Below, piece after piece: positions 1,249 through 32,582 of a stretch of DNA of 47,465 bases. How positions within the stretch are numbered: the stretch's first letter is position 1; the number at the start of each line of letters is the position of its first letter. The position numbers and the translations under genes were made by a program. This DNA comes from Dyella psychrodurans (GTDB lineage: Bacteria > Pseudomonadota > Gammaproteobacteria > Xanthomonadales > Rhodanobacteraceae): NCBI RefSeq assembly GCF_003363265.1, contig NZ_QRBF01000003.1, forward strand, positions 299,208 through 346,672, written 5' to 3'. The notes below the pieces were generated by a model. That model saw only the letters and a program-made list of their open reading frames with translations. It had not been told where the DNA came from and ran no database searches.

Positions 1249-1432
1249 CAAATCATGGGGATAGATTTGGAGCGACATACCGCATGCTTTTTTTTGCTCG
1301 TCATCCCGGCGCAGGCCGGGATCCAGTGAAATACGCGTGCGCAGCACACTGAATAGCTTTTAGTTGTTGAGTGCTTCGCACCGGTATTCAAACTGGATCC
1401 CGGCCTGCGCCGGGATGACGAGCAAAAACGTG
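1249..1432. repeat. Palindromic repeat element, copy 1 (core orientation A)
   Basis: Arms of 36 bp at 1292-1327 and 1392-1427 are perfect inverted complements and contain the CATCCCGGC...GCCGGGATCC pattern. They flank a 64-bp asymmetric core at 1328-1391. A conserved leader (GGGGATAGATTTGGAGCG) starts at 1257. Related copies are at 22417-22606 and 32387-32582. The element lies between the 3' ends of convergent genes (MBL stop 1221, GST stop 1498). Translations through it give the spurious peptide IPACAGMT, so short reading frames here are not genes. Confidence 0.9.
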
Positions 1433-1497
1433 GCGACGAGCCCCACTCCCATCGCTGTGAACGCCATTCACTTGGTAGCAAACCGAACGGTGACCCA

Positions 1498-2136
1498 CTA
1501 TGCCGTTTGCGCGAGCCACGCCTTCCTGGAGTGACAGGTTTCCATGGCGCGCTTGTAGCCTTCGCGTGCGCGGGTGCGCGCCAGGTAAGACTGCTCTGCC
1601 TCGCCGAGGGTGATGCCGCCACTGGTTTTGGCCAACTCCAGGGCGTAGGTCACCGAAATGTCGGCGGCGGTGAACGTTTCGCCGGCAAGAAAGGGCGTGC
1701 GTGCAAGCTGTCGCGTCACCAGTGTCAGCCGGCTCTCGAAAACGCTTAGCGCCTGGCCAGCGCTCCAGTTCTTCCGCTCGGATTCCGGCGCAAAGTTGCG
1801 GGCACCCACGACGAAGTAGATGGAAGCCGCGAGGCCGGCTTCACCGAGGTGAAGGAACTGTTGATAAGCGGGGAAGGTGGGATCGTGCGGGTCGGGCGCG
1901 AGCGGCGTCGGCCCGTAACGCGCCATCAGGTATTCCATGATGGCGATGGACTCGACCATCGTGACGTCGCCGTCCTGAATCGCCGGAATGAAACCGGCGG
2001 GGTTGATGGCCAGGAACTCCGCGTCATGCTCGGCGCCAGCCAGCAGGTTCACCGGCCTCAGCCGGTACGCGAGCCCCATCTCCTCCAGCAGCCAGACGAC
2101 CCGGAAACCTCTTCCTTCACCAAAGACTGTGATCAT
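1498..2136 (-). CDS. Glutathione S-transferase family protein
   Basis: This 212-residue protein has the usual GST length and layout. An N-terminal thioredoxin-like domain (about 1-78) contains NPAGFIPAIQDGD, which carries the cis-proline, and VESIAIMEYL, the glutathione-contacting ES motif. An all-helical C-terminal domain (about 88-205) contains LAGETFTAADISVTYAL, the conserved N-capping and hydrophobic-staple region. The cytosolic enzyme would conjugate or reduce small electrophiles with glutathione; the class and substrate are unknown. ATG 2136 is preceded by AAGGA at good spacing. It shares the minus strand with the desaturase upstream, but a gap of over 120 nt separates them, so co-transcription is not evident. 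Confidence 0.9.
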   Translation of the reverse strand: MITVFGEGRGFRVVWLLEEMGLAYRLRPVNLLAGAEHDAEFLAINPAGFIPAIQDGDVTMVESIAIMEYLMARYGPTPLAPDPHDPTFPAYQQFLHLGEAGLAASIYFVVGARNFAPESERKNWSAGQALSVFESRLTLVTRQLARTPFLAGETFTAADISVTYALELAKTSGGITLGEAEQSYLARTRAREGYKRAMETCHSRKAWLAQTA

Positions 2137-2261
2137 CGTTCGTCATCCTTCTTTGATTCGGCCTTATCGGCCCCGCCCCGGAACGACGAACGGGCATTTC
2201 GAAAATCGACATGGCCGGCAGAATTTATCCAGATCGCGCGATGGGGCCGGGCGCGTCTCCT

Positions 2262-3248
2262 TTAACGTACTTTGCCAAACCCGCGAAACTGCCGGAGCGC
2301 GGCTCTGAAATAACCCGCTTCGGTATCGGGAGCGGAGGCTGCGGCACCCTCGCGCGCGAGCGCCGGAAGCGCTGTCCACGGCAGCGTGGGATGCTGGTGA
2401 TGCAGGCGGTGAAGATGATGATTCATCAACACGGGCCGCCAGATGGCCGGCGCGCGAAAGTTGCGAGCCCGTCCTTGTTCGTCAAGCGTGACATCGTAAT
2501 GTGGAAGGTTATCCACCAGTGAGAGCCACAGTCCGCGCAAAAACATCGTTATGGCAAGCGCGGGCCACCACGCGCCGTAGAGATAAAATGCGCAGGCGTG
2601 GAGTGCGACCGATAGTATCCAGTCATGCCGCATACGGACGCGCCGCTCCGGATTTCCGGCAAAGCCGACAAACAGGCGCTGGACATCACGGCCTATCGGC
2701 TCTTCGCTGTGAAACTTGTGCGCGACGATGCGGCACACCCATGGGGTCGGCAGAAAGGTGACCAACGGCACCGCAAGTTCCACCAGATACAGACCGCCCA
2801 ACAAGCGCGTGTAATAACCGACGCGAGCGAGCATGTGATGCGTCACGCCATCATGCACGTCCGGCCGGTCAAAGGGTTCGCGCGTAAAGCGGTGATGCAT
2901 CAGGTGACCGAAGCGCACGGCGTCGAACGGCAACACGAAGGCGATGGCCAATGCCCGCCCAAGCCATTCGTTGAGCCGCCGTTGGGGCGATAACTGCCCA
3001 TGAATGGATTCGTGGATCAGCCCCCAATGCGTCGGGGCCAGCACCACGAGCGGCAGCGCGACCCACAGCGCGGACGCACCCCACTGCCGCAACATGAATG
3101 GCCATGCGATGAGCTGCACCAGCACGGCTGTCGCGACGAGTCCAAGGAGCGCCCCATTGGCGCGATGGTCGATGGGAGCACGCCGATACGTCCGCCGTTC
3201 CGCCGCTGTTTGGGGGCCATCCCTTTCTGCCGCTGCCTGTAGGCGCAT
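2262..3248 (-). CDS. Membrane fatty acid desaturase family protein
   Basis: This 328-residue integral membrane protein carries the three histidine boxes of the di-iron desaturase superfamily: HESIH at about 79-83, HLMHH at about 115-119, and HHLHRLHHQHP near 278-288. Hydrophobic segments at about 33-55 and 62-78, and further on between the boxes, fit a four-helix membrane topology with the iron ligands on the cytoplasmic face. The reaction would be O2-dependent desaturation or hydroxylation of an acyl chain or other lipid. The regiospecificity is not predictable, and related families act on carotenoids and sphingolipids. ATG 3248 has GGGGAAAAG just upstream. No dedicated ferredoxin or reductase gene is adjacent. 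Confidence 0.85.
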   Translation of the reverse strand: MRLQAAAERDGPQTAAERRTYRRAPIDHRANGALLGLVATAVLVQLIAWPFMLRQWGASALWVALPLVVLAPTHWGLIHESIHGQLSPQRRLNEWLGRALAIAFVLPFDAVRFGHLMHHRFTREPFDRPDVHDGVTHHMLARVGYYTRLLGGLYLVELAVPLVTFLPTPWVCRIVAHKFHSEEPIGRDVQRLFVGFAGNPERRVRMRHDWILSVALHACAFYLYGAWWPALAITMFLRGLWLSLVDNLPHYDVTLDEQGRARNFRAPAIWRPVLMNHHLHRLHHQHPTLPWTALPALAREGAAASAPDTEAGYFRAALRQFRGFGKVR

Positions 3249-3381
3249 CTTTTCCCCACAAGTACAGAATAGTCGCCGGATAACCTAGCAGCGTCTTTTG
3301 ACAGCTTAAAGAGCGTGCCAGCGATTAAGTCCTTTTGACCGGATAGGGCCTGAAATACCCCACCGCTTCGGTGCAACTCAT

Positions 3382-3678
3382 TTAGGTTGGAAGGCCTTCA
3401 ACGATGCGAACGTCACGTTCGGCTGCGCCCACGAGGTGCTGCACCGCGGCCTGATACTCGGGGCTGCGATACGCGGCGTCAGCGGCGTCGAGACTGCTGA
3501 ACTCGACGATGGCTACGCGCTGCAGCATGCCCGCTTCGTAGGCAAAGGCGGGCAGGCCCACCGCTAGAACCCGGCCACCTTGAGCCCGGATGACCGGCCC
3601 AGCAGCGGCTGCGTATCTGTCGAAGCCAGCCTGATCCGACAGGGACCGAAATGTCATGATCCAGTATCCACTAGCCAT
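3382..3678 (-). CDS. DUF1330 family protein
   Basis: This small 98-residue protein matches the DUF1330 pattern, a dimeric alpha-beta barrel fold. It opens with GYWIMTFRSLSDQAGFDRYA and continues with GGRVLAVG, VAIVEFSSLDAADAAYRSPEYQ, and a short acidic and hydrophobic tail. Family members are cytosolic and uncharacterised, so no enzymatic role is assigned. ATG 3678 is preceded by AGAGGAG at 7 nt, a strong ribosome-binding site. It is a single gene: 133 nt separate it from the desaturase start and about 230 nt from the pilus operon. Confidence 0.8.
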   Translation of the reverse strand: MASGYWIMTFRSLSDQAGFDRYAAAAGPVIRAQGGRVLAVGLPAFAYEAGMLQRVAIVEFSSLDAADAAYRSPEYQAAVQHLVGAAERDVRIVEGLPT

Positions 3679-3910
3679 CGTTCACTCCTCTGGGTGGGAT
3701 ATCGCCTAGGCATAAATCGTGAGAACAAGACACGGACTTTGCCACAGACATGAAGCCTGTGCCGATTAACCCATCGTGCGCAGATCGCGACGCAGCCCGT
3801 CGAGCAACGCCAGGGTGGCTATAGAAACAGTCGCATGTTGAAGAAAGTCTTCATGGCGCTGCTGACACATCGGTGATTTCGTCCAGCGTCCTGGATTTTT
3901 CAAGCTGCCC

Positions 3911-4678
3911 TTACGGCGTCAACGTCGCGGTGTGCGGCACAAATTGGCCATAGTCGCTGATGCTGCTGAAATGCACTTCCAACTTCGCCCCGTTGGCCGG
4001 ATGAAAATCCTTGAGCGGGTAACGTTGCGTGCCGCCGGGCGCGATCATTTGCGGGGTGTCGCTCTTGATGTCCTTGCCATCCGCGACGAGCGACACGCTT
4101 TCGAACGAGACGTGATAGACGCTGGGGTTTTCCGCGACCAATGCCGGTTCCGCGCCGTCTGTCACCAGTTTCCAACGTAACTGGCCTGGCGCATCGGCGG
4201 CATTGCCTTTCAGACCTTTGGGTCGGAAGAACAGCTTGATGCGCGTGCGAAATGCCAGTTGCAGCGTATTGGGCTGCTGTCCGTTGACGGCCTTGGGCTT
4301 GGGCGGTATTTCCAGCACATTGAGCCAAAACACCGACTCTTTGTCCGTGGGCAGCGGTTTATCGTTGTCCTTGAGGTAGGTCACCCGCAGTGCTTGCCCC
4401 TTGCCGGGGTCGATGCGAAATACGGGCGGTGTCAGGAGGAACGGTACATGGAGCTGATCCGGCGTGCTCTTCTCATTGCCGTCATCGATCCAGGCGTGCA
4501 CCAGCAGCGGCGACTTCTCGTCCTGATTAGTCAGCTTGACGGTGATCTCGCGCTCCTGCGCGGGATAAATCACCCGTGTAGTGTCGAGCACGACACCGGC
4601 CTGGACGGGAACGGTGAACATGCTTGCCAGGCAGCAGGCTGCCAGCGCACATAGCGAGCGAACGTGGTGCATCTTCAT
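3911..4678 (-). CDS. Periplasmic pilus chaperone (third in operon)
   Basis: This 255-residue PapD/FimC-type chaperone has a signal peptide (about 1-27, ending VPVQA). The N-terminal Ig-like domain begins GVVLDTTRVIYPAQEREITVKL, the usual G1-strand signature region. The family motif DKESVFWLNVLEIPPK and the RTRIKLFFRP stretch follow, and the second Ig domain runs to the C-terminus. It would bind pilin subunits by donor-strand complementation in the periplasm and deliver them to the usher. It is the last gene of the operon. GGGGAGAG lies 8 nt before ATG 4678, partly inside a small hairpin at 4691-4708. It resembles the chaperone just upstream, so the pair probably arose by duplication. Confidence 0.92.
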   Translation of the reverse strand: MKMHHVRSLCALAACCLASMFTVPVQAGVVLDTTRVIYPAQEREITVKLTNQDEKSPLLVHAWIDDGNEKSTPDQLHVPFLLTPPVFRIDPGKGQALRVTYLKDNDKPLPTDKESVFWLNVLEIPPKPKAVNGQQPNTLQLAFRTRIKLFFRPKGLKGNAADAPGQLRWKLVTDGAEPALVAENPSVYHVSFESVSLVADGKDIKSDTPQMIAPGGTQRYPLKDFHPANGAKLEVHFSSISDYGQFVPHTATLTP

Positions 4679-4690
4679 GAGTAGTCTCTC

Positions 4691-4708
4691 CCCATCCTCA
4701 AGGATGGG
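4691..4708 (-). promoter_or_regulatory. Hairpin overlapping the ribosome-binding site of the last chaperone
   Basis: CCCATCCT at 4691-4698 and AGGATGGG at 4701-4708 are complementary. In the minus-strand mRNA the second arm runs into the GGGGAGAG Shine-Dalgarno (about 4686-4693) of the downstream chaperone. The hairpin could lower translation of the distal chaperone. That effect is inferred from position only. Confidence 0.4.
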
Positions 4709-4711
4709 TGT

Positions 4712-5482
4712 TCAATGCCATTGCAACTTGGCCGTATAGTTCTGCTCGCTGCCGTAATCATCGACAGCCGAAAAATGCACTTCTGACGTCGCATCGGTCT
4801 TGCCGGAGAAGTCTTTGAGCACGTAGCGTCCCGTACTTCCCGGAGCAAGCATCGGCGGTGCGTCGCTTTTGATGTCCTTGCCGTCCACCACCAGCGCGAT
4901 CTTGGAAAACGAGATGTGGTAAGCACTGGGGTTGTAAACCTCCAAGGCTTGCGCTGCACCGTCTGATACGAGTTTCCACTTCAACTGCCTCGGTGCAGCG
5001 TCAGGCTGGCCGGCGAGACCGTCGGGGCGGAAAAACAATTTGATCCGGGTGCGGAAGGCAAATTGCACGGTGTTTTCGCTGGCCTTGCCGGCGGGTTTGG
5101 GCGGCACCGCCAACACGTTGAGCCAGAACACCGACTCCTTGTCCGCGGGCAATGGCTTTCCGTGGTAATCGCTTTTTGTATAGATGACGCGCAAGGCTTG
5201 GCCCTTGCCCGCGTCCAGGCGAAACATCGGCGGTGTCAGCGTAAACGGCACATCGATCTGATCGGGCGTTTTACTGGTGTCGCCATCGTCGATCCACGCG
5301 CGCACCAGCCGTGGGTCGGTTTTTTCGTCATTGGTCAGCTGGACGGTGACTTCCCTCTCTTTCGCGGGATAAATCACGCGCGTGCCGTTGATCACGATAT
5401 CGGCCTGCACCGGCGCACAGAACAGCGCCATCAGGCACGTGGCGGCAAATAAACGGGCAAGGTTTGAAAATAACATGTTCAT
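4712..5482 (-). CDS. Periplasmic pilus chaperone (second in operon)
   Basis: This 256-residue chaperone of the PapD/FimC family has a signal peptide (about 1-27, ending CAPVQA). The mature N-terminus DIVINGTRVIYPAKEREVTVQL matches the first Ig domain. The motif DKESVFWLNVLAVPPK and RTRIKLFFRPDGL follow, then a second Ig domain with the PSAYHISF segment. It would escort pilins to the usher. Three chaperones serve one usher here, suggesting each is dedicated to a subset of subunits. GGGAG lies about 10 nt before ATG 5482. A 55-nt gap separates it from the upstream minor pilin. Confidence 0.92.
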   Translation of the reverse strand: MNMLFSNLARLFAATCLMALFCAPVQADIVINGTRVIYPAKEREVTVQLTNDEKTDPRLVRAWIDDGDTSKTPDQIDVPFTLTPPMFRLDAGKGQALRVIYTKSDYHGKPLPADKESVFWLNVLAVPPKPAGKASENTVQFAFRTRIKLFFRPDGLAGQPDAAPRQLKWKLVSDGAAQALEVYNPSAYHISFSKIALVVDGKDIKSDAPPMLAPGSTGRYVLKDFSGKTDATSEVHFSAVDDYGSEQNYTAKLQWH

Positions 5483-5537
5483 GATCTCGACTCCCTCGAT
5501 GATGTCTTTCCACTCGCAGAGAGGAACGTAGGCCGCA

Positions 5538-6107
5538 TCAGTTATACGACAACATCACGGTCACCACGCTATCGGCCGCACCCGGCGTGACCGTTGACAG
5601 TGTTTGCACATAACGCGCCCGCATGGGGTAGGTACTGCCGGCTGCGACCGGTGACCAATTCAATAAATTGGTGGTGCTGTTGGGCACCACGGTGGCGGTG
5701 CCATCCTGGGTCTGCAGTTGTATCCCGATCCCGCTGGCGCCACCGGTAGCAATCGCAAACAGGCCGCTGTTGGTGGTGTCGGCGTTTCCGTTAAAGCCCA
5801 TATGAATGGTCACGATATCGGCACTGCATCCTTCCGAGGTGATCGGAAAATCGACCCAGCCGGAGGGTGGTGACGTACCGACGCCGGTAAATTCGCTGGC
5901 GTCGTGCGCACCCAGGTCGACCGGATTCGTCGAGATGGCGCAAGCGCCGCCGCCGATGACGCCGGTGACGTTGATGGTGGCGTTCCCGGTCTGCGCCAGC
6001 GCAGCACCGGATACCAGGGTCATCAAGCCCGCCAATAAAGCGATAGCCCGTCGACGATGCCCTAAACGGGTATGGGGAAATACATACGGGTGTCTCATCT
6101 CGTGCAT
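5538..6107 (-). CDS. Minor pilin subunit (last of three)
   Basis: This 189-residue type 1-like pilin has a long signal peptide (about 1-39, ending AALAQ). The Ig-like pilin domain has two cysteines (GGACAIST and SEGCSADIV) that would form the subdomain disulfide. It ends DSVVTVMLSYN, the penultimate-tyrosine beta-zipper tail recognised by chaperones. An N-terminal extension rich in GNATINVTG would donate the complementing strand. Either ATG 6107 or ATG 6098 could be the start. The stop of the preceding pilin lies at 6109-6111, so the genes are almost contiguous and likely translationally coupled. It is more diverged than the two pilins upstream. Confidence 0.85.
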   Translation of the reverse strand: MHEMRHPYVFPHTRLGHRRRAIALLAGLMTLVSGAALAQTGNATINVTGVIGGGACAISTNPVDLGAHDASEFTGVGTSPPSGWVDFPITSEGCSADIVTIHMGFNGNADTTNSGLFAIATGGASGIGIQLQTQDGTATVVPNSTTNLLNWSPVAAGSTYPMRARYVQTLSTVTPGAADSVVTVMLSYN

Positions 6108-6108
6108 C

Positions 6109-6657
6109 TCACGTATAAGTGATCAGGACGGTGATGGTTGCGTCGGCCGGCCCTGTGGTGATGTTGAGGTCGCTTTGTACATAGCGCGCAGAGAACGTGT
6201 AGAGCCCGCCTGCAGCCTGAGGTGTAAACGGCACCGGGGTGCTGCTATTGGGTATGGCTATAAAGCCGTTGAGCTGAAACAACTCGATGCCGACACCGGC
6301 AGCACCCCCGGTCACCGCAAATAAATGGGGGTTGGTGCTGTTGGCTGGGGCGGTGAAGGTCATCGATACCAGGGACGCGTCGCAGCCACCGGAAACCAGG
6401 CTGCCGTTCACCCAAGGCGAAAAGCTTCCCACGCCGGTAAAGGTCGACTTATCCACGGTTCCCAACGGAATCGTGACATTCGACGTGCTCAGCGTGCAGG
6501 TTGCCCCGGTAATCGTGCCCGTGACATTAATTGTCGCATTGCCGGTGCTCTGCGCAAAAGCGGAGCCGCATCCCAAGGCCATGACACCCGCCAACAAGGC
6601 GATAGTCTGGCAGCGCTGCGCTAAATGTAATTTATAAAATTCGCGTATGTTTTTCAT
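6109..6657 (-). CDS. Minor pilin subunit (second of three)
   Basis: This 182-residue pilin has a signal peptide (about 1-36, ending GSAFAQS). The mature part has GNATINVTGTITGATCTLST, a second cysteine in VSGGCDASLVSMTF, the conserved core LFAVTGGAAGVGIEL, and the tail ATITVLITYT with the penultimate tyrosine. Much of it matches the neighbour at 6668-7201 residue for residue, including SLVSMTF, FAVTGGAAGVGI, ARYVQSD and the tail, so the two are recent paralogues. It would be a fibre subunit polymerised by donor-strand exchange. The start lies 10 nt past the upstream stop with a poor ribosome-binding site, consistent with coupling. Confidence 0.87.
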   Translation of the reverse strand: MKNIREFYKLHLAQRCQTIALLAGVMALGCGSAFAQSTGNATINVTGTITGATCTLSTSNVTIPLGTVDKSTFTGVGSFSPWVNGSLVSGGCDASLVSMTFTAPANSTNPHLFAVTGGAAGVGIELFQLNGFIAIPNSSTPVPFTPQAAGGLYTFSARYVQSDLNITTGPADATITVLITYT

Positions 6658-6667
6658 GTCAGGTATC

Positions 6668-7201: not shown

Positions 7202-7204
7202 CCC

Positions 7205-11115: not shown

Positions 11116-11220
11116 ATCGAACATTCCCAACGGTTACTTCGAGACAGCTGTGGTTAGTTGCCGCGCAGCGTGCTGCGCGGCCATGGACATTTCTGCGGTA
11201 GCTGCCGGGGCAACGCGCGC

Positions 11221-21776: not shown

Positions 21777-21800
21777 TGGACTGAAGTGGTTTTCGACAAG

Positions 21801-21826
21801 GCGTTGCCGCACACAGGCGGCAACGC
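21801..21826 (+). promoter_or_regulatory. Intercistronic hairpin before the TlpA-like gene
   Basis: GCGTTGCCGC (21801-21810) and GCGGCAACGC (21817-21826) are perfect 10-bp complements with a 6-nt loop (ACACAG). They lie between the barrel gene stop (21776) and the TlpA-like start (21855). No T-tract follows on the plus strand, so attenuation or mRNA processing is more likely than full termination. Confidence 0.6.
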
Positions 21827-21854
21827 TCCGAAAAACAATGTTGGAACTGAAAAA

Positions 21855-22382
21855 ATGTTTGAACGCATGAACCGTTACGTACGATGCATGACAGCCGCGA
21901 TGATGCTGATGGTTGCCGCGCTGCCGCTGCACGCCAACGACCTGTCGGTGGGAAAACCTGCCCCACCGATAACGCTCAACACGCTCGATGGAAAACACAT
22001 CGCGCTGGGCGATCTGCGCGGAAAAGTGGTGATCCTGACCTTCTGGGCAACGTGGTGCGGCCCCTGCCAGCAGGAGCTGCCACTGCTATCCCAGTACGCG
22101 CGCGAGCATGCGAAAGATGGCCTGATCGTGCTGGGCTTCAGCCTCGACGAGCCGGACGACATGAAGCAGGTTCGCGCGGTGGCCGACCGTTTGAGTTTCC
22201 CCGTGGGCTTGCTGGGTGACCCGCGCGTACCCGGCTATGGACGCATCTGGCATCTGCCCGTGAGCTTCACCATCGATCGCAACGGATTGCTCGTTGACGA
22301 CGGCTGGAAAGACGAAGATCCATCGTGGACGCAGGCGCGGCTCGAGAACATCGTGACGCCGTTGCTACGATCATCGAATTGA
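21855..22382 (+). CDS. TlpA-family thiol-disulfide oxidoreductase
   Basis: This 175-residue periplasmic thioredoxin-like protein has a signal peptide at about 1-29 (MTAAMMLMVAALPLHA). The redox motif WATWCGPC has cysteines at about 68 and 71. The cis-proline region is in WHLPVSFTIDRNGLL, followed by a helix and a short C-terminal tail. TlpA/ResA-type proteins reduce disulfides in cytochrome c maturation or metal-binding targets. Here a plausible client is the CxxCxC barrel or the DUF2946 protein, but this rests on adjacency only. ATG 21855 has GGAA 8 nt upstream. It converges with the gene at 22651 across palindromic repeat copy 2. Confidence 0.88.
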   Translation: MFERMNRYVRCMTAAMMLMVAALPLHANDLSVGKPAPPITLNTLDGKHIALGDLRGKVVILTFWATWCGPCQQELPLLSQYAREHAKDGLIVLGFSLDEPDDMKQVRAVADRLSFPVGLLGDPRVPGYGRIWHLPVSFTIDRNGLLVDDGWKDEDPSWTQARLENIVTPLLRSSN

Positions 22383-22416
22383 TCGTCGCGTCGTCGCTAG
22401 TTTTGTCCAGAAAAAA

Positions 22417-22606
22417 ATGGGGATAGATTTGGAGCGACATGCCGCATGCTTTTTTGCTCGTCATCCCGGCGCAGGCCGGGATCCAGTGAAATACGCGTGC
22501 GCAGCACACTGAATAGCTTTTTAGTTGTTGAGTGCTTCGCACCCATATTCAAACTGGATCCCGGCCTCCGCCGGGATGACGAGCAAAAACGTGAGGAAAC
22601 CTCAGG
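22417..22606. repeat. Palindromic repeat element, copy 2 (core orientation A)
   Basis: Arms lie at 22452-22487 and 22553-22588 (36 bp each, one mismatch), with a 65-bp core at 22488-22552 in the same orientation as copy 1. The leader GGGGATAGATTTGGAGCG precedes it, and AACGTGAGGAAACCTCAGG follows it, as in copy 3. It sits between convergent genes (TlpA-like stop 22382, hypothetical stop 22651). Confidence 0.9.
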
Positions 22607-22650
22607 CTCTGCCCCCTTTTCGTGATCCCATTTTCGAGACCGCGCCTGTA

Positions 22651-23403
22651 TCAGTGATCATGCATATCCGCAGGCGTTCCGTCGGACCAATTGGGGACCG
22701 CGACCAGGAACACCAGAATCGGCGGTAGCTCTTTCATTTTGGGTTGTTCGCCCGGAGAGTAGAACCAATAGGGGCTGGACATGATCGGCGAGTTCTCTGC
22801 GCCTGAACCCCAATCCTTACTGTCTTTGACGCGGGTGTAGAACATGACATGGGGCATGTTGTGGCCCCCTTGGTCGGTGAGATACGACGATTTCGACATC
22901 ATGAAATCCATCGCACCGCTTTCGAGGTCCGGCAGTTGTTTATTTTGGTATGCGGCCTTGAGTGCCGACACCGTCTCCGCCTTGGAGCGACCGGCCATCA
23001 CCATCTTGGCGCGTAGCTCAATGATGGGCACTATCGAACGTGCAGCCTGGGGGTTCAGGCAATCGGCAGCTCTCACCTTCGGGTTCCAGAATTCGTCCCA
23101 GTCGAATGCCGCAGCCCAGCTCCGGCCCACAAAGCAGACGAAACCGTTCTTTCCTTGGACCGCCGTCTCATAGCCATGCCGTCCCAGCACCAGAATCGTC
23201 GCATCGCGAGAAATGGATTCCGGCGCCGCACTTCGCGCCAGAGCAATTTCAGCGTCCCGGTCCGCCATGAGGTATTGATCGGTCGGCGCCATCTTCGGAT
23301 AGGGTTGCGCGGCATCTTGTGCCATCGCCTGAAGTGCCGTGCCGAGCCCGACAAGTAGTGCGACGCTCGTGATTACCGTTGCGCCAATCTTGTTCTTGCG
23401 CAT
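22651..23403 (-). CDS. Secreted hypothetical protein
   Basis: This 250-residue protein has a clear signal peptide (about 1-29, ending LQAMAQ). The mature part has no domain I recognise. Visible features are DATILVLGRHGYETAVQGKN, FVCFVGRSWAAAFD, two separated cysteines (FVCF and ADCLN), PHVMFYTRVKDS, and a C-terminal PPILVFLVAVPNWSDG. The sequence looks globular and single-domain. ATG 23403 is chosen because GAGGAGAG lies directly upstream; the frame stays open further but without a signal peptide. A YCII-domain gene lies 89 nt upstream on the same strand, so the two may be co-transcribed. A periplasmic location is inferred; no function is assigned. Confidence 0.7.
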   Translation of the reverse strand: MRKNKIGATVITSVALLVGLGTALQAMAQDAAQPYPKMAPTDQYLMADRDAEIALARSAAPESISRDATILVLGRHGYETAVQGKNGFVCFVGRSWAAAFDWDEFWNPKVRAADCLNPQAARSIVPIIELRAKMVMAGRSKAETVSALKAAYQNKQLPDLESGAMDFMMSKSSYLTDQGGHNMPHVMFYTRVKDSKDWGSGAENSPIMSSPYWFYSPGEQPKMKELPPILVFLVAVPNWSDGTPADMHDH

Positions 23404-23492
23404 AGTGCTCTCCTCACCATCGGTCATTTCACCCAGAAACGTATCGTGCGCCCGACCCTCTGCGCCGCACCCGTTCGCTGCTGCCGTACTGC

Positions 23493-23849
23493 TCAGTTCT
23501 CCGCAGGAGCGGGCATGAAGAAAATCTCCCGCACCTCGACCACGCTCTGGAACGCCTTGGCGCCTTTGCGCATCCACGCCAGCACTTCATCCAGATTTTC
23601 AGTTTCCAGTATCGAAAGACCGCCCACGTATTCCTTGGCCTCGATGTACGGACCGTCAGTGACGACCACCTCACCATTGGGCTGCGACCGCATGGTCACT
23701 GCCTTCGGACTCAGGCCACACGCAAACTTCCTGACACCCGCAGCGACCATCTCCCTGTTGAGCGCGTGGATGGCTTCGATGGTCTCTTCGGTGACGAGCG
23801 ACGGGTCGAAGTTTTCGGGAATGTAGGTAGAGATCAGATATTGCGGCAT
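23493..23849 (-). CDS. YCII-domain protein
   Basis: This 118-residue single-domain YCII-type protein (dimeric alpha-beta barrel) has the opening strand QYLISTYIP. The family motif VVTDGPYIEAKEYVGGLSIL contains the conserved DGPY and E residues. A helix with DEVLAWMRKGAKAF and a final strand VEVREIFFMP follow. Such proteins are cytosolic; some act on small ring compounds, and many occur beside ECF sigma factors, although none is present here. GGGGAA precedes ATG 23849. The secreted hypothetical gene lies downstream on the same strand. Confidence 0.82.
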   Translation of the reverse strand: MPQYLISTYIPENFDPSLVTEETIEAIHALNREMVAAGVRKFACGLSPKAVTMRSQPNGEVVVTDGPYIEAKEYVGGLSILETENLDEVLAWMRKGAKAFQSVVEVREIFFMPAPAEN

Positions 23850-23980: not shown

Positions 23981-24014
23981 GCACTTTTCTATTTCCCTTT
24001 CCATGGAAAAGTGC
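23981..24014. repeat. Short inverted repeat, GCACTTTTC family
   Basis: GCACTTTTC (23981-23989) and GAAAAGTGC (24006-24014) flank a 16-nt loop. A related sequence with matching loop bases and following CG-CCC lies at 32590-32621, attached to the right side of palindromic element copy 3. The two are probably one short dispersed repeat family. Confidence 0.55.
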
Positions 24015-24032
24015 TTCGACCCTTTTCCCAGC

Positions 24033-24597: not shown

Positions 24598-24828
24598 TGC
24601 GTGGCGTCATCCGGCTCTTTCAGCAGCCTGTCGCATTTCACTCAATGTCGAGTACCCCCATGGATTCAGGGCCTGGACCCGCCATGTTCGTTTTGGATCA
24701 AAGTGTGCGCCAGGACAAATTGTAAGGCCCATGAAAGCAGGAAGATTGCGTGACGCAGATCAAGTTTGTGCACCTTCGGCCGATTCGGTAGCTTTACGGT
24801 CCGCGCGATTCGTTAGCCTAGGCGTCCG

Positions 24829-25353: not shown

Positions 25354-25357
25354 CACG

Positions 25358-27064: not shown

Positions 27065-27995
27065 GGCGGCGTTGCAGTTCGATGGCGCGTGCGCGGTAGA
27101 TCACCGCAGGCTCGTAGCTCGGATCAACAGCCAGGATGCGATCCCATAGCGCGATCGCCTGATCGAGCTTCTGATCGCGATAAAGCACCACGGCGCGCTC
27201 GTGATACGACGACAGCAATTGAGCGCGCAATGCAGGATCGCCGGCCGGCTTCACATGCGGATCGACCGTCAACGCCTCATCGAGACGCGTCAGAGCCTGA
27301 TCCTTTTTCCCCTGTTGGAGCAGGGCCGTGCTCTCCGCCTGCAATCGTTGCGCTTTCATCGCGGGCGATTCGTCGGATGGCGAGGCATCCTGCGACGTTG
27401 CGGGCGTGACGACGATGGTGGGGGTCTCCTTGGCGTTGCCATGGGTCGATGTGCTGTTCGATGCCGCGCCGCGCGAGGCCATCCTAGGCAGGCGAACCAC
27501 TTCGCCTACACGAAGCGTGGATGGGTTCGTCGAACCGTTGTAACGCGCCAACGCGAGAAACTGATTGGAATCGCCCAGATAGCGCGCGGCCAGCGTGCTG
27601 TAACTATCGCCCGGCTGCACGACATAGCTGCGCGACGCCGAGCCAAGCATCGCCTTCGGATCCGCGGTGAGCTGTCGCAGCATGTTCTGCGCGGCGCGGT
27701 CGTTCGGATACTTGGCCAGGTATGTACGCAAGTGTTGCTCGCCTTCGACATAGCGGCCTTGCAACAGATACGTGTTGGTGATGGCGCTCAGGCTCAGCGG
27801 CTGGTCGCTATCCGGCGCAGGCGAAGCCTGTACGTCGGCCCCTGCTGGCTTCGGGCTGAAGGCGTTGCTCACCTTGGATTTAAGCGCCCCCACCTGGCTG
27901 CAGCCGGCCATGCCAAGCACGGCGATGAGGCACAGAGCGTGTGTCGCGCATCGCGCAACAGTTAGTTTGGAACGAATCGCAGCGATCAAACTCAT
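27051..27995 (-). CDS. Lipoprotein with LysM and TPR repeats
   Basis: This 314-residue protein has a lipoprotein signal (VLGMAGC, C32). A TPR-like helical region at about 70-110 (YLLQGRYVEGEQHLRTYLAKYPND) precedes a LysM domain at about 123-169 (SYVVQPGDSYSTLAARYLG, then LRVGEVVRLP). A low-complexity Ser/Thr/Ala linker and C-terminal TPR repeats at about 215-305 (GKKDQALTRLDEALTVDP and DQKLDQAIALWDRILAVDP) follow. LysM binds peptidoglycan, so it would be an envelope scaffold. ATG 27995 overlaps the phosphatase stop by 4 nt, so it is co-expressed with PP2C. It may give the kinase/phosphatase module a cell-wall sensor, which is inference. Confidence 0.87.
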   Translation of the reverse strand: MSLIAAIRSKLTVARCATHALCLIAVLGMAGCSQVGALKSKVSNAFSPKPAGADVQASPAPDSDQPLSLSAITNTYLLQGRYVEGEQHLRTYLAKYPNDRAAQNMLRQLTADPKAMLGSASRSYVVQPGDSYSTLAARYLGDSNQFLALARYNGSTNPSTLRVGEVVRLPRMASRGAASNSTSTHGNAKETPTIVVTPATSQDASPSDESPAMKAQRLQAESTALLQQGKKDQALTRLDEALTVDPHVKPAGDPALRAQLLSSYHERAVVLYRDQKLDQAIALWDRILAVDPSYEPAVIYRARAIELQRRLNQI

Positions 27996-28858
27996 ACCTC
28001 GTCATACGTGTTGACCGGCGACTTGCTTCGCCGCCGGATCGGAAATATCGCCTGCCACAGGGCGGGCCAAAAACCGCCGCCAAGTCGTCGCCGCCCACTG
28101 CCGACCTGTGGGCGCGCAAAGATCAACGAGACATTGTCGCCACTTATGCCGCCGCGCTCCACCGCCAGATGGATGGCTTCGTGCAAAGCTTCATGCTGGT
28201 CGCGGCGTTGCGCGAAACGGCCAAGCTCATCGTCCTGCAGCTGCGTCCACACGCCATCGCTGCACAACACGAATGCATGGCCTCGGCGCAAATCGCCACT
28301 GCCGTGATCGACCACCGGCTCATCGGGTCCGCCCAAACCACGCAACAGCTGCTGCTGATCGGCGTGCGTCGCGAGTTCGCACTCGGAGATCTCGCCTCGC
28401 CGATACTTGAGCTGCGCCAAGCTGTGGTCCTCCGTGCGCCCCATCAATCGGCGCCCATTAAAACGATACAACCGGCTATCCCCGACGTGAGCCCAGGCGA
28501 CGCGGCTATCCTTTACCAACAAGGCGACCACGGTGGAGTGCGTTGCACCGCTGGCCAGGCGCACCTGACGACGACGAAGCTCGGCGTGGGCTGCCTGACA
28601 CAATGACTCCAGGAACAACGAGGTCGGCTGGCGACGCCATTCACCTCGTTCCCATAGCCGGTGCGCGACGTCGATCACACCCTGGGAAGCCAGCTCGCCC
28701 GCACCGTCGCCGCCCATGCCATCGGCCAGCACCAGAAGGTAGGTATGCGTCGCCGGATCGTAGAGACAAGCCAGATCATCCTGCTGCGTATCGCGGCCAC
28801 CTCGCGCCCGGCCAGCGGCCACGCTGGGAAGCGCATGGAATTCGATCGAGTTGTCCAC
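27992..28858 (-). CDS. PP2C-family Ser/Thr phosphatase
   Basis: This 288-residue PPM/PP2C phosphatase has the metal and catalytic motifs in order: GGRDTQQDD (about 20-28), LADGMGGDGAGE (44-55), AHVGDSRLYR (123-132), LCSDGVWTQL (198-207) and SGDNVSLIF (239-247). The two-metal site is complete. It is soluble with a basic C-terminal tail (RRRSKSPVNTYDEV). It would remove phosphate from targets of the kinase encoded on the other strand, possibly including the FHA protein. GTG 28858 follows GGGAGGGGGC, a strong ribosome-binding site. A hairpin repeat lies 67 nt upstream. It overlaps the LysM gene by 4 nt. Confidence 0.92.
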   Translation of the reverse strand: MDNSIEFHALPSVAAGRARGGRDTQQDDLACLYDPATHTYLLVLADGMGGDGAGELASQGVIDVAHRLWERGEWRRQPTSLFLESLCQAAHAELRRRQVRLASGATHSTVVALLVKDSRVAWAHVGDSRLYRFNGRRLMGRTEDHSLAQLKYRRGEISECELATHADQQQLLRGLGGPDEPVVDHGSGDLRRGHAFVLCSDGVWTQLQDDELGRFAQRRDQHEALHEAIHLAVERGGISGDNVSLIFARPQVGSGRRRLGGGFWPALWQAIFPIRRRSKSPVNTYDEV

Positions 28859-28925
28859 CCGCCCCCTCCCTTAGAGACCGATCCTCGGCTCCGACAATTT
28901 AGCTGGATGAGCACTATTGTGTAAT

Positions 28926-28949
28926 GTCCACTTTGGGTCGAAAGCGGAC
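28926..28949 (-). repeat. Short hairpin repeat, copy 2 of 6
   Basis: GTCCACTTT and AAAGCGGAC pair except for one A/C mismatch. The loop is asymmetric and on the minus strand reads like the other copies. It lies 67 nt upstream of the PP2C start at 28858 and marks the left edge of the AT-richer patch. Confidence 0.8.
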
Positions 28950-29027
28950 CTCATGTCTATTCGCAAAAAACTGAATCACTGGAATTGCCACTCATTACAT
29001 ATCGATCAGAACCAACACTGTGAATGC

Positions 29028-29291
29028 TCAGAAAAAAATCAGAACCACAAAGCACAAAACAGCACATACCCCCGACAGGCAAATTCCGCACCAAAAGAGA
29101 ACAGGATCCTCAGATCTCTTGGCCATTGAATAGAGGATTGAAGCATTTCCAGTTCTGAGCCCTCTGATCAAATTGAGCAAAAGGAACGCGCCGGCCAAAA
29201 GTAAGAAAAAATCTTCCTTCACAGTTTGGCTACTGTAATTTCGATTAATCATACTGTTCGCAAAGGTGAACACCCAGACCTTCATAACCAT
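29028..29291 (-). CDS. Small membrane protein, unknown
   Basis: This 87-residue protein has two predicted membrane helices, about 28-45 (FFLLLAGAFLLLNLIRG) and about 66-87 (WCGICLSGVCAVLCFVVLIFF). A short polar loop (RTGNASILYSMAKRSEDP) lies between them. No family is recognised. GGGGG abuts ATG 29291, so ATG 29285 (7 nt away) may be the real start. Base composition is visibly more AT-rich than the flanking kinase module, which suggests later acquisition. No partner gene is evident; the lipoprotein gene upstream on the same strand is about 190 nt away. Confidence 0.5.
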   Translation of the reverse strand: MVMKVWVFTFANSMINRNYSSQTVKEDFFLLLAGAFLLLNLIRGLRTGNASILYSMAKRSEDPVLFWCGICLSGVCAVLCFVVLIFF

Positions 29292-29478
29292 CCCCCGTGG
29301 CTAACCGCAATGTCAGCTATGGATCGAAACAGACTAAGAGGCCAAAGAGAAATCAACTAAAGCTCCCTAGCCACTTCCAGCCTTTTTACGCACTAAACAT
29401 AAAACAGCTAAGGGCATACCAATCCGTCTTGCAACTCGTCGAAGACAGCTTTGCTCAAAACTCAGCAGGAAGCTCTCG

Positions 29479-30027
29479 CTAATACGCCTGGTTCGTGGGT
29501 TGCTGATCTTCCGTCAGGTGAATTACCGAAGGATAAACACGAGACAATTGTGGATAGTCGCTCGCGACAGTAGGGAGCCAGACTTTGGACTGATCCTCAA
29601 TACGCAACTTATAAGTCGGCAAGCCATCCGGTCTATTGACCCTGGTAAAAGTGAGCAATAGATCACCGACGTAGTTGATTTTCCCTGCCTCGATGGTAAA
29701 GGGCATGCGATACGACGTCGCAGATCCTGCGTAAAGGCCCAAATCTATAGTGGCCCAGTTGTACTCTCCCGCCGGAAGCGCAATCACTATTAGGTTGCTC
29801 CGTTTACGCGGATAGAGAGTCGTCGGGATCGAACTACCATCGAGCTTGTCGACTTTGATACTGAGAGCATCGTATTTGAAGGAGGAGGTTTCCGAAAATA
29901 TCGAGACATGGGCAACCATGATGCCAGTCCCCGGAGGAAGCATGGCAGTGTCTTTCAATATTGAATTTGTCGAGCAGCCGGCGATCAACATGATCAACAG
30001 CAAGAACCACACCCTGCCTAATGACAT
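29479..30027 (-). CDS. Lipoprotein of unknown function
   Basis: This 182-residue protein has a short lipoprotein signal (FLLLIMLIAGC, cysteine about 18). The mature part is all-beta in pattern: GTGIMVAHVSIFSETSSFKY, LNVIVI-type strands with LPAGEYNWATIDLG, MPFTIEAGKINYVGDLLLTF, and a Pro/Tyr-rich end (SDYPQLSRVYPSVIHL). LPAGEY followed by INYVGDL resembles small envelope lipoproteins with a DUF2846-type fold, but I am not certain of the family. GGAG lies about 8 nt before ATG 30027. A hairpin repeat lies 29 nt upstream. Gene composition is AT-rich for this genome. Confidence 0.65.
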   Translation of the reverse strand: MSLGRVWFLLLIMLIAGCSTNSILKDTAMLPPGTGIMVAHVSIFSETSSFKYDALSIKVDKLDGSSIPTTLYPRKRSNLIVIALPAGEYNWATIDLGLYAGSATSYRMPFTIEAGKINYVGDLLLTFTRVNRPDGLPTYKLRIEDQSKVWLPTVASDYPQLSRVYPSVIHLTEDQQPTNQAY

Positions 30028-30056
30028 ATTCCAATCTCCAATAGATGTGTTCGATT

Positions 30057-30084
30057 AGGTCCGCTATAGGCCGAAAGCGGACCT
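30057..30084 (-). repeat. Short hairpin repeat, copy 3 of 6
   Basis: AGGTCCGCT (30057-30065) and AGCGGACCT (30076-30084) are perfect 9-bp complements. The orientation of the loop matches the other copies. It is 29 nt upstream of the lipoprotein start at 30027. Confidence 0.85.
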
Positions 30085-30142
30085 TAACTAAAGCACTAAA
30101 ACGCTCGACTGCACGCTCCAGAAATCTTGACCTCATCCACAG

Positions 30143-30673
30143 CTACCGGAAGCCTCGCGCTACCTTTTCTATATCGTCCCTATTTTTGAGGGGCATCCGA
30201 GGGCGGAGACAAGTACTCCCCCAAGGGTTTGTCGCCGGATCTACTTCGGATATCTCGTCTAAAGTGCCTCCGGAAAAATAAGCACCGTACTCCGCCAATT
30301 CCACGGGGCGCGCTTTGAAACGTCCCCATATCCTCACGTAAGTGTGGTTCAGCGAGAAGAGCTGTTGCTTCAACTTAAAATTCTTCGGGAGCGCAACGAC
30401 TAAGCCATTCGAGACGTCTGAATTCATAAAAGAATCCGGATTGAGAAACAAGATCGGCACTTTCGCATATACAAAATAGCCCGTGACCATGACTAATTTG
30501 TTGTCGAATTCCTCGCGCCTAGCCATCAAAACCGACATGGATGGCATGCACGTGACTTCGCCGAGTCCGCCTATGTAGTGGCAATAAGGATTGGGGTTGT
30601 CGCCTGAGATAGATGGCTCGATGGAATTTGCAGCCAAGAGCGGAGCGACGATCACTAACACCCACTTTTTCAT
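30143..30673 (-). CDS. Secreted hypothetical protein
   Basis: This 176-residue protein has a short signal peptide (KKWVLVIVAPLLAANS). The mature protein carries NPYCHYIGGLGEVTCMPSMSVLMARREEFDNKLVMV (split across residues about 29-63). GYFVYAKVPILFLNPDSFMN, HTYVRIWGRFKARP and a C-terminal TCLRPRMPLKNRDDIE follow. The strand pattern VMVTGYFVY...VRIWGRF suggests an OB-like barrel, as in small nucleic-acid or ligand-binding folds, but this is tentative. Cysteines at the N- and C-terminal parts may pair in the periplasm. AAGGG lies about 7 nt before ATG 30673. A degenerate hairpin repeat is 83 nt upstream. Confidence 0.6.
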   Translation of the reverse strand: MKKWVLVIVAPLLAANSIEPSISGDNPNPYCHYIGGLGEVTCMPSMSVLMARREEFDNKLVMVTGYFVYAKVPILFLNPDSFMNSDVSNGLVVALPKNFKLKQQLFSLNHTYVRIWGRFKARPVELAEYGAYFSGGTLDEISEVDPATNPWGSTCLRPRMPLKNRDDIEKVARGFR

Positions 30674-30756
30674 ATCAGCCCTTATTGCCTCTATATCGGG
30701 TGATGTCGCTTCCAGTCTGGCACTTGACGCCGAAGACGGAGAGGAGCCCATCTCAT

Positions 30757-30778
30757 TGCTTTGGGTCGGAAGCAGACA
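30757..30778 (-). repeat. Short hairpin repeat, degenerate copy 4 of 6
   Basis: The sequence matches the family across the loop (TTTGGGTCGGAAGC), but one arm has decayed, so the stem is short. It is 83 nt upstream of the start at 30673 and in the same orientation as the others. Confidence 0.55.
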
Positions 30779-30786
30779 CCAAAAAG

Positions 30787-31071
30787 CTACCGGATAAGCT
30801 GATCTCTCCATCCGATAAGCAACTCAACCACTTTCCTGTCGTGCTCGTGATTAGCCCCCACGCCGATCTGCTCGGTGCTCAGCCAATGAAGGTATTCGGC
30901 CACATCCTTCCCATCGGTGGTGCCTTTAAGTCGCAGGAACACCTGCGGGACATAGCTTTCGTACTCATCCCTCGCCTGAGGAACATGGGCGACTCCAACT
31001 GGATCCCATACGTAGTGAAGGACTTCGTCGATCCTGCGTAGAAGCTCGTTGTCTTGTGGCGAGAGATTCAC
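30787..31071 (-). CDS. Hypothetical protein with RRIDEVLHYVWDP motif
   Basis: This soluble protein of about 94 residues begins VNLSPQDNELLRRIDEVLHY and contains VWDPVGVAHVPQARDEYESY, VFLRLKGTTDG and a helical C-terminus (VVELLIGWRDQLIR). The combination RRIDEVLHYVWDPIGV followed by PEARDEY recurs in many bacterial hypotheticals, but I know no function for it. GTG 31071 is my choice of start: the open frame runs on to 31263, but the extra residues are translated from the hairpin repeat (31101-31124) and from the 3' end of the VOC gene. The weak GGA 12 nt upstream makes the exact start uncertain. Confidence 0.6.
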   Translation of the reverse strand: MNLSPQDNELLRRIDEVLHYVWDPVGVAHVPQARDEYESYVPQVFLRLKGTTDGKDVAEYLHWLSTEQIGVGANHEHDRKVVELLIGWRDQLIR

Positions 31072-31100
31072 TGGGTCATTTCCGGAGGAATTTTTGTTTG

Positions 31101-31124
31101 GTCCGCCTTGGGTGGGAAGCGGAC
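31101..31124 (-). repeat. Short hairpin repeat, copy 5 of 6
   Basis: GTCCGCCTT and AAGCGGAC pair around a GGGTGG loop. The orientation is as in other copies. It is 29 nt upstream of the preferred start at 31071. Confidence 0.75.
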
Positions 31125-31238
31125 ACTCCAAGAATGTCCGCGCAATCATCTCGTCAACAATGTTGCCTTGGACTACCAGCGACCATACGGTTCTAGCGTA
31201 CATAAAGGAAATGGAGGCGATCCCTTCTTGTTCGATGG

Positions 31239-31667
31239 CTACGGGTGCCGCTTCGGGTTCCACGCTTTGTGCACGAACTCAATACGGTTTCCATCGAAGT
31301 CGGCGACGTTAGCTGCGTAGTAGCCTCGGGCAAAGTAGGTACGATCTGCTGGTTTACCTTCGTCGGTGCCACCGGCTTTGATTGCGGCCGCGTAGGCGGC
31401 GTCGACCAATTCATTGGTATCGCAGACGATTCCGATGTAGAGCCCGGTCTCGCCAGGCTTGCGTTGCCGTAGCCAGACGCTTGATCCGACCGCCTTCCCG
31501 CTGAGATACGCATCATCAGCAATGCCGTAAAGATCCGGGACGCCCTCGGGACCTGAAGCAGCGTCGTAGTTGCCGAACAGGCGCCAGCCGAGCGGCTTCA
31601 GGGCTTCAGAGTAGAACGCCAGCGACTTGTCGATGTCGGTGACGGAGATGTAGACGTGGTCGATCAT
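31239..31667 (-). CDS. VOC (glyoxalase/bleomycin-resistance fold) family protein
   Basis: This 142-residue vicinal-oxygen-chelate protein has paired beta-alpha-beta-beta-beta modules. It opens IDHVYISVTDIDKSLAFYSE, with the first metal-ligand histidine position. The second module has LYIGIVCDTNELVDAAYAAA and ends YYAANVADFDGNRIEFVHKA, with the conserved DxDGNxIE glutamate. Family roles include isomerases, dioxygenases and fosfomycin-type resistance; the substrate cannot be told. ATG 31667 is preceded by AAGGGAAAA. The frame extends upstream through a hairpin repeat, giving the peptide MSAFDPKRTF, a common annotation artefact, so the longer start is rejected. Confidence 0.87.
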   Translation of the reverse strand: MIDHVYISVTDIDKSLAFYSEALKPLGWRLFGNYDAASGPEGVPDLYGIADDAYLSGKAVGSSVWLRQRKPGETGLYIGIVCDTNELVDAAYAAAIKAGGTDEGKPADRTYFARGYYAANVADFDGNRIEFVHKAWNPKRHP

Positions 31668-31707
31668 TTTTCCCTTTTCTTGTTGCTTCAAAGCCAATGC
31701 GGAAAAG

Positions 31708-31731
31708 GTCCGCTTCGGGTCGAAAGCGGAC
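31708..31731 (-). repeat. Short hairpin repeat, copy 6 of 6
   Basis: GTCCGCTT (31708-31715) pairs with AAGCGGAC (31724-31731) around a CGGGTCGA loop. It lies 40 nt upstream of the VOC gene start. On the minus strand it encodes the artefactual peptide MSAFDPKRT. Confidence 0.88.
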
Positions 31732-31818
31732 ATTACGACAGCTCGACGGGGAACTCCAATCCGATGAGCATGGTCAAGTCTCGGACGCGCCAAGTGGGCG
31801 CATATAGGGAGTGGAGCC

Positions 31819-32334
31819 ATGAAGGTACAAGCGTGCATCGCACTGGCCATTGTCGCAGTGATGTCTATCGGCAATTCTTCGATGGCAGCATCGCCGACAA
31901 TGCCGCCTGTGCAAGGCGACGAGGTTTCAGCGCTACATGCGCTGTGGGGTCGCTATCAAAAAGCCGTTGCGAGTAAAGATGCGGCAGCGATGCTGGATAT
32001 GTACGTGAGTGGAGATGCACCCGTCATGGGGGCATTCGCTCCCAAGTCCTATGCGGTTGTAACGGCCGCCAACAAACAGCCGGTGCCGCGCACCCTGCTG
32101 AGCACCGCAAAGGAAGACGTGGCGGGTGAGGTCAAACTACCGCCAGACGAGATTGAAAATCTGGACATTCATACCGACGGAGAGGTCGGGTCAGTCTCGT
32201 TCGACTATAAAGCCAAGGTAGGCCACGGACGGATCATCTGGACAACCGTCCATACAAACGAAGGATGGAAGATAGCTTCCGTCGTCTATTCAATAAATGT
32301 TCCCGCTGCGGACAGCGAAGGCACGTCGGGCTAG
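31819..32334 (+). CDS. Secreted NTF2/SnoaL-like protein
   Basis: This 171-residue protein has a signal peptide at about 1-24 (ending SSMAAS). The mature domain opens with a helix and conserved pattern, EVSALHALWGRYQKAVASKD, followed by AAMLDMYVSGDAPVMGAF. Curved-sheet strands follow (VGSVSFDYKAKVGHGRIIWT and EGWKIASVVYSI), typical of NTF2-like or DUF4440-type folds. Many such proteins bind small ligands or act as isomerases; no catalytic set is evident. GGAGTGGAG precedes ATG 31819. It is divergent from the VOC gene, with the hairpin repeat between the two, and converges with the gene at 32644 across palindromic repeat copy 3. Confidence 0.75.
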   Translation: MKVQACIALAIVAVMSIGNSSMAASPTMPPVQGDEVSALHALWGRYQKAVASKDAAAMLDMYVSGDAPVMGAFAPKSYAVVTAANKQPVPRTLLSTAKEDVAGEVKLPPDEIENLDIHTDGEVGSVSFDYKAKVGHGRIIWTTVHTNEGWKIASVVYSINVPAADSEGTSG

Positions 32335-32386
32335 AGAGCCCGCTCACTCATGTGGCCACCCATGTTTTGCGATAGACAATCGTCAA

Positions 32387-32582
32387 CAAATCATTGGGGA
32401 TAGATTTGGAGCGGCATGCCACATGCTTTTTTGCTCGTCATCCCGGCGCAGGCCGGGATCCAGTTTGAATACCGGTGCGAAGCACTCAACAGCTAAAAAG
32501 CTATTCAGTGTGCTGCGCACGCGTATTTCACTGGATCCCGGCCTGCGCCGGGATGACGAACAAAACGTGGAGAAACCTCAGG
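32387..32582. repeat. Palindromic repeat element, copy 3 (core inverted, orientation B)
   Basis: Arms lie at 32429-32464 and 32530-32565 (36 bp, one mismatch). The 65-bp core at 32465-32529 is the reverse complement of the cores of copies 1 and 2, differing from copy 1 only by one extra base and one substitution. The outer leader (from about 32396, GGGGATAGATTTGGAGCG) and the right tail (GAAACCTCAGG) keep the same orientation as in copy 2. It sits between convergent genes (stops 32334 and 32644). Confidence 0.9.

Follow-up and report, generated by a model that had tools for sequence, protein, structure and literature searches.

The DNA stretch analysed here (the window) comprises 47,465 nucleotides of the Dyella psychrodurans contig NZ_QRBF01000003.1 (positions 299,208 to 346,672, forward strand) and holds three copies of a palindromic element. 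In this element, two CGTC-type repetitive extragenic palindromes (REPs) lie head to head around a short asymmetric core, and the pair is carried in a non-autonomous miniature inverted-repeat transposable element (MITE) with IS4-type ends. We have found its core in both orientations on flanks that did not turn, and this recurs in several subfamilies and species.

The three copies share one layout (leader, left arm, core, right arm, tail), which was read directly and measured, and a common leader (repeat family D3). Copy 1 starts with a leader at 1249-1291 (+), a shortened left part of the MITE that matches the leader of the full element G000:C4 (L010; G000 is the genome of the window) over 50 bases at 88%. 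The left arm (1292-1327, +, with the CGTC-REP at 1299-1325) was delimited as an inverted-repeat pair and by alignment, and alignment also placed the asymmetric core (1328-1391, +), whose orientation we have called phase I, and the right arm, the reverse complement of the left one (1392-1427, -). An 11-bp direct repeat at 1223-1233 (+) has its partner at 1432-1442 (+); the pair, seen by eye, is a probable target duplication, as expected of a transposed unit. Copy 2 consists of a leader at 22417-22451 (+; match to the G000:C4 leader over 42 bases, 90%), a left arm with its CGTC-REP (22452-22487, +), a phase I core (22488-22552, +) and a right arm with one mismatch (22553-22588, -), all three placed by alignment, and a tail at 22589-22606 (+) that holds a terminal inverted repeat (TIR) with one mismatch to CCTGAGGTTTCCCCACG (G000:C10:321797-321813). 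In copy 3, the leader at 32387-32428 (+; 77 bases, 91%), whose similarity extends left to about 32359, is followed by a left arm with its CGTC-REP (32429-32464, +), a core in the opposite phase, phase II (32465-32529, -), a right arm with one mismatch (32530-32565, -), both arms again placed by alignment, and a tail with a TIR, also with one mismatch (32566-32582, +; G000:C10:331773-331789). With the left arm of copy 1 as the reference, none of the six 36-nt arms has more than one difference. This agreed, within a few bases, with an earlier note on this DNA that had described three copies with a shared leader, 36-bp inverted arms and a core of 64-65 bp.

Cores 1 and 2 are identical at 62/65 positions in the same orientation. 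Core 3 matched core 1 at 43/68 positions as they lie and at 63/65 after reverse-complementing, and the reversed core 3 matched core 2 at 62/65. Since a core compared with its own reverse complement gave 42/67 to 44/68, which makes it a loose quasi-palindrome, the flip stands well above the quasi-palindromic background. Hence, the claim that core 3 is the reverse complement of the other two, with about two differences from core 1 once re-oriented, was upheld. Leader and right tail were also said to stay in place; they are unturned in all three copies, with the tail of copy 1 cut short, and only the right MITE end is well preserved (copies 2 and 3). Single strands of copies 1 and 3 folded into one long hairpin (z-scores of -12.75 and -11.12, respectively), and none of 200 dinucleotide-preserving shuffles folded as well. 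A search of the window against Rfam returned nothing at gathering score.

The surroundings of the copies were also inspected. Copy 1 lies between convergent genes for a metallo-beta-lactamase-fold protein and a glutathione S-transferase (367-2136), and begins immediately behind the stop codon of the former. Copy 2 is flanked by a gene of the AhpC/TSA type and by a convergent open frame that has no Pfam match (21786-23577); the genes that flank it (22417-22606) are about 19.5 kb apart in species G011, so that copy 2 marks an insertion or deletion point between species. A 27-nt palindromic repeat of the AAGGTCCGCTTCGGGTCGAAAGCGGAC type, unrelated to the REP pair, occurs five times in the window (24318, 28923, 30056, 31098 and 31705).

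The arms read CGTC ATCCCGGC GCAG GCCGGGAT CCA. They show the CGTC tag, the 8-bp stem starting with AT, the 4-nt loop and the CCA tail given for family 1 of the CGTC-REPs (stem 8, loop 4) in the part of the source report used here (Di Nocera et al. 2013, PMC3733652). According to the same part, CGTC-1 REPs form head-to-head dimers in most cases, some with structured spacers, have no transposase of their own and, in some species, are embedded as dimers in longer palindromes. The two REP units of our element lie in opposite orientation around a conserved spacer and constitute such a dimer. A BLAST search with copy 1 gave 84 matches in the own genome, of which those at full length are mostly pairs that lack a leader, and REP pairs outside MITEs are present in large number in the genus, among the matches listed. 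A Y1 transposase (RAYT) was considered as the mover and rejected, as the search for PF01797 gave no match in the own genome while it was positive in 5 of 14 control genomes. This result, together with a CGTC tag in place of a GTAG-type one, also sets the element apart from REPINs.

Leader and tail correspond to MITE ends, and full copies elsewhere span CCTGAGGTTTCCCCACG to its reverse complement. Allowing up to two mismatches, this TIR pattern was present at no fewer than 134 places in 16 Dyella genomes (at least 134, against 6 for the reversed pattern, among the matches listed). Three TIR-bounded places are about 1.35 kb long; two of these units hold a transposase frame and the third only the ends. 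The one protein tested, the transposase from L130, belongs to the IS4 family (NF033591, 303 bits, cut-off 152; also DDE_Tnp_1), and the TIRs are common to the MITE and to this 1.35-kb IS4-family insertion sequence of related Dyella genomes. Short direct repeats were seen at several MITEs, by eye and uncounted, and several of the targets are themselves similar palindromes. Searching the 16 genomes for the IS4 transposase gave matches in four (G002, G004, G007 and G013) and none in the own genome, G006, G008 or G011. With no transposase found there, the MITEs of the own genome look orphaned of the enzyme that would mobilise them.

A REP pair alone is symmetric on its outside and provides no frame, whereas the asymmetric MITE ends make the orientation of the core readable. 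Based on these ends, we have scored 42 framed copies in five subfamilies, and both phases were found in four of them. Subfamily O, to which the window copies belong, comprised eight copies with leader, both arms and tail. Five were in phase I (copies 1 and 2, both Dyella lipolytica copies and one copy of G015) and three in phase II (copy 3 and, elsewhere in the own genome, one copy each on contigs 4 and 12). The phases were distributed 7:6 in subfamily A (species G011, core of 12-16 bp, arms of 27-29 bp), 4:2 in subfamily B (also G011), 2:3 in subfamily F (G004, core of about 65-72 bp) and 10:0 in subfamily S (G006). The proposal that the core turned between the arms while the flanks did not was therefore supported, as four of the five subfamilies have both phases on one and the same type of flank. 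As to the earlier note's reading of copy 3 as the flipped one, its opposite phase stood, and it may or may not be the turned copy: phase II is present in two further framed copies of the own genome and phase I in D. lipolytica and G015, so copy 3 is no oddity and the flip can be read in either direction. That the flip is recent or the family young is no more than a possibility, since both phases also occur in other subfamilies, whose flanks diverge by 5-12% on average. The identification of the parts, a CGTC-REP pair inside an IS4-type MITE, goes beyond the earlier note.

These counts are samples and not censuses, as only part of the listed places was fetched, and for most genomes 40 first-look candidates were scored when listing places. 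Two partial copies stand outside the 5:3 of subfamily O, namely C1b (phase I, with a decayed leader; 13 of 2000 shuffles as good) and C1a (phase II, tail only). Subfamily A had 25 flank matches, of which 13 were scored; the remainder were broken up by another insertion (L156, L163, L228, L229, L234, L236 and L239), had another, long core (L159 and L235), or were a half copy (L230), partly N (L232) or collapsed to one REP (L233). Six of 10 matches were scored in subfamily B, two of them (L154 and L241) with a 45-bp insert in the left arm, and collapsed (L152 and L258) or interrupted copies (L243 and L246) were dropped. In subfamily S, 10 of 11 matches were scored and the collapsed L141 was dropped. 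Subfamily F was scored at L132, L134 and 3 of 15 further loci, 11 of which had no match at threshold; L133 (its two sides give contradictory frames), L345 (another core) and L135-L137 (no pair) were left out.

Over 163 bases of arm-core-arm, including a 27-bp insert in one arm, C4 (phase II) and C1b (phase I) share 96% identity, yet they lie in opposite orientation relative to their leaders, which indicates that the insert turned together with the core. Inserts of about 27 bp (AGGCGCTTC..AGCGAAGCTGGTC and variants) occur in many copies and species, on the inner or outer side of the stem of one REP arm (L010/L079, which is C4, L081, L082, L083, L015, L026, L034, L156 and L163), and may represent a very small repeat or may themselves have arisen by template switching. 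In G011, another repeat, with ends CACTGCTGTCCGGGGAA and variants, was repeatedly inserted into the loop of REP arms (L156, L163, L228, L229, L234, L236, L239, L243 and L246), suggesting that REP hairpins act as insertion targets.

We have then asked how phase maps onto trees. On the flank tree of subfamily A (13 rows), phase needs five changes, with a mean of 4.5 for shuffled phases and 423 of 500 shuffles as low. Phase is scattered over this tree and close sisters are of opposite phase: the sole starred branch (98/98) unites L165 and L225, L155 and L160 are paired at 94/96, both pairs with opposite phases, and the nearest flank neighbour is in the opposite phase for 9 of the 13 copies. Starred branches alone require at least two phase changes. 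The re-oriented core tree of subfamily O needs three changes and has no starred branch; none of 200 bootstrap trees needs one change, and the phase II copy of contig 12 groups with the two phase I copies of D. lipolytica (88/94). The earlier note had proposed that core orientation always coupled to a distinct flank type would mean two separate families. On the 42 framed copies this coupling was rejected, by the counts and by the flank tree of subfamily A. Two families, each with its own core orientation, are thus scarcely credible: a single flip is compatible with the flank tree of subfamily O, but four of five subfamilies have both phases per flank type and flank sisters disagree.

Six loci common to different species have comparable cores, and there the aligned flanking DNA, and no MITE, provides the frame. 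The core was clearly flipped at L181/L183 (score of -6 as it lies and 10 flipped) and at L038/L090 (12 and 33), with 0 of 1000 shuffles as good in both cases, and weakly flipped at L176/L194 (0 and 2, 34 of 1000 shuffles). L266/L278, with scores too close to call (7 for the same and 5 for the flipped orientation), was the single new locus with comparable cores that came from syntenic 200-kb blocks (G003/G001 and G003/G010); these blocks also contained two known ones, and their other shared sites had unlike cores. Flips at shared loci without MITE ends indicate that they occur outside MITEs too. At another locus, L026 (G000) is a long-core REP pair without MITE ends and L255 (G011) is a MITE-B copy with a short core. 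The blocks of G003, G001 and G010 also hold a second class of inverted REP pairs (L263-L302), with tag CGTCGTCCCGG and cores such as gtgtctt..aagtcac.

These loci bear on two alternatives, both of which we consider highly unlikely. The first is that REP pairs were inserted independently into MITEs in either orientation. The many REP pairs outside MITEs in the genus would have supplied such insertions, but the flank-arm junction falls at the same base in both phases (e.g., L155 and L160), which would otherwise need a strict choice of site, and cores are flipped also at shared loci outside MITEs. The second is that assemblers misplaced the core between identical inverted arms. The arms are 27-36 bp long and most genomes are multi-contig assemblies, as this would need; against it, the clear flip at L181/L183 involves a single-contig genome (G003). 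In addition, the arms are shorter than common assembly word lengths and the arm-core-arm segment (~70-140 bp) fits one read, which also counts against an artefact.

The fraction of opposite-phase pairs was related to flank divergence in subfamilies A, B and S, in pairs that are non-independent. It was 1/31 below 2% divergence, 5/28 at 2-5%, 20/37 at 5-10% and 24/42 above 10%. A two-state model over all pairs put the rate at ~11 flips per substitution per site, with values of 6.5-19 when 70% of the copies were subsampled. Such figures suggest that the flip behaves like a slow reversible mutation that accumulates to about one half, though families differ. A dedicated phase variation system, a genetic switch in which a site-specific recombinase would invert the core, appears very improbable to us. 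In its favour, the phases are close to 1:1 in subfamily A, and short inverted repeats bound invertible bacterial segments in the part of PMC5903667 used here; against it, the fim-type segments given there measure 266-296 bp, far above our cores of 12-65 bp. A fast switch would also randomise near-identical copies, yet the 10 copies of subfamily S are all in one phase (probability of 0.002 under random phase) and a single one of the 31 pairs below 2% divergence is of opposite phase.

Slow, enzyme-free flipping of the core by template switching between the REP arms is, in our view, probably the best explanation (probability of about 0.6). Because the inverted REP arms are near-perfect, single-stranded DNA at a replication fork or in repair could pair arm with arm. 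The polymerase would then change template inside one arm, copy the core off the complementary strand and return in the other arm. The core would be written in reverse, with arms and flanks unaltered, and flipping of this kind would be slow, reversible, presumably neutral and in no need of a dedicated enzyme. The copies show what template-switch inversion leaves behind, a reversed spacer with arms and flanks kept. Of the two mechanisms proposed earlier, template switching would fit better than recombination between the arms: cores of 12-16 bp flip between arms of 27-29 bp, which is easy as a single-strand loop and awkward for two duplex sites. Among 122 distinct dimers, 103 had the same loop in both arms (shuffled mean of 53.8, maximum of 65 in 2000 shuffles), as arm homogenisation predicts. 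Four MITEs had collapsed to a single REP hairpin with loss of the core (L141, L152, L233 and L258), as slippage in a palindrome would produce.

The main rival to template switching is ectopic gene conversion, which we regard as unlikely though to be taken seriously. A broken or gapped copy would be repaired from another copy, the donor being aligned backwards via the inverted arms so that the core is copied in reverse. Near-identical donors are many, as the 84 BLAST matches show; copies 1, 2, 3 and C4 have almost the same core despite differing leaders; and the core of L166 (subfamily A) looks, by eye, intermediate between the A and B core types. Homology for pairing would, however, be limited to the arms, and 27-36 bp is short for RecA-type pairing. 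Moreover, subfamily S, which has diverged least and offers ten near-identical donors, had no flips in 10 copies. It is also conceivable, but doubtful, that the cores flip as a side effect of whatever process spreads CGTC-REP pairs, in which a single-stranded hairpin would be cut and rejoined, or recopied, either way inside its own arms. If so, each REP pair in such genomes would be a two-state record, and frameless flips would have been overlooked in many bacteria.

Several observations weigh against slow flipping by template switching. In subfamily B, the nearest flank neighbour was of opposite phase in only 1 of 6 copies, and the flank tree of subfamily O has no supported branch, a single flip being compatible with 36% of 200 bootstrap trees. 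Two of the six shared loci were unchanged, L014/L055 (33 same, 11 flipped) and, less clearly, L020/L034 (16 and 10). The loop agreement is equally predicted by descent of the dimer as a unit, and some genomes had no excess of it (G010, 5/6 with 5.0 expected; G008, 0/2). Clock fits to single subfamilies disagreed: the fit for A ran to the upper bound of the scan and that for S to the lower one, while B gave 33 flips per substitution per site. The low-divergence pairs are mostly from S, so part of the trend may reflect a difference between families. The evidence is comparative throughout, the flips being deduced between lineages with none caught within one, and a core converted from another copy would look almost the same.

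A turned core normally escapes notice, because a REP pair looks the same from either side. Once the pair sits in an asymmetric MITE, flips can be counted, and Dyella thereby offers dozens of natural reporters. The frequency of hairpin-mediated template-switch reversal of spacers in a bacterial chromosome, and its dependence on spacer length (12 to 65 bp), can now be tested, as can a role of hairpin processing in the unexplained spread of CGTC-REPs. Unless the flip is taken into account, alignments of such repeats will count a single event as many substitutions.

The components of this system are of kinds already known, namely CGTC-REP dimers, IS4 MITEs and spacer inversion between inverted repeats. 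In the open-licence full texts of PubMed Central (subscription papers and preprints being outside this search), we have found no description of REP pairs in bacteria whose core is inverted recurrently and, in the same texts, none of a MITE frame used to reveal core inversion. The CGTC-REP dimers resemble ours in tag, 8-bp stem, 4-nt loop, CCA tail, head-to-head arrangement and conserved structured spacers; the part of that report used here does not discuss spacer orientation against an outside frame, and the word "inversion" and the name Dyella are absent from its main text (PMC3733652). REPINs and RAYT-mobilised REPs likewise have two inverted REPs around a spacer, but carry a GTAG tag where our element has CGTC, and the own genome gave no match to their Y1 transposase. 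IS4-family MITEs share with ours TIRs in common with a DDE insertion sequence and short direct repeats at the ends (by eye), and the Dyella MITE differs in having a REP dimer as its middle. Small hairpin inversions of chloroplasts, such as that of trnH-psbA, have a loop of ~25-27 bp and inverted repeats of at least 18 bp and flip both ways, homoplasiously, at a single orthologous plastid site according to the part of PMC2903610 used here, whereas the Dyella repeat is dispersed. In yeast, as far as the part of PMC8604942 that we have used describes it, template switching between inverted-repeat arms leads to arm homogenisation and reversible spacer inversion. The likeness lies in arms that are kept and a spacer that is reversed, reversibly and recurrently. 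The yeast cases concern coding genes with arms of ~10-16 bp and spacers of a few bases, and the Dyella element is a bacterial multi-copy repeat family with arms of 27-36 bp and cores of 12-65 bp.

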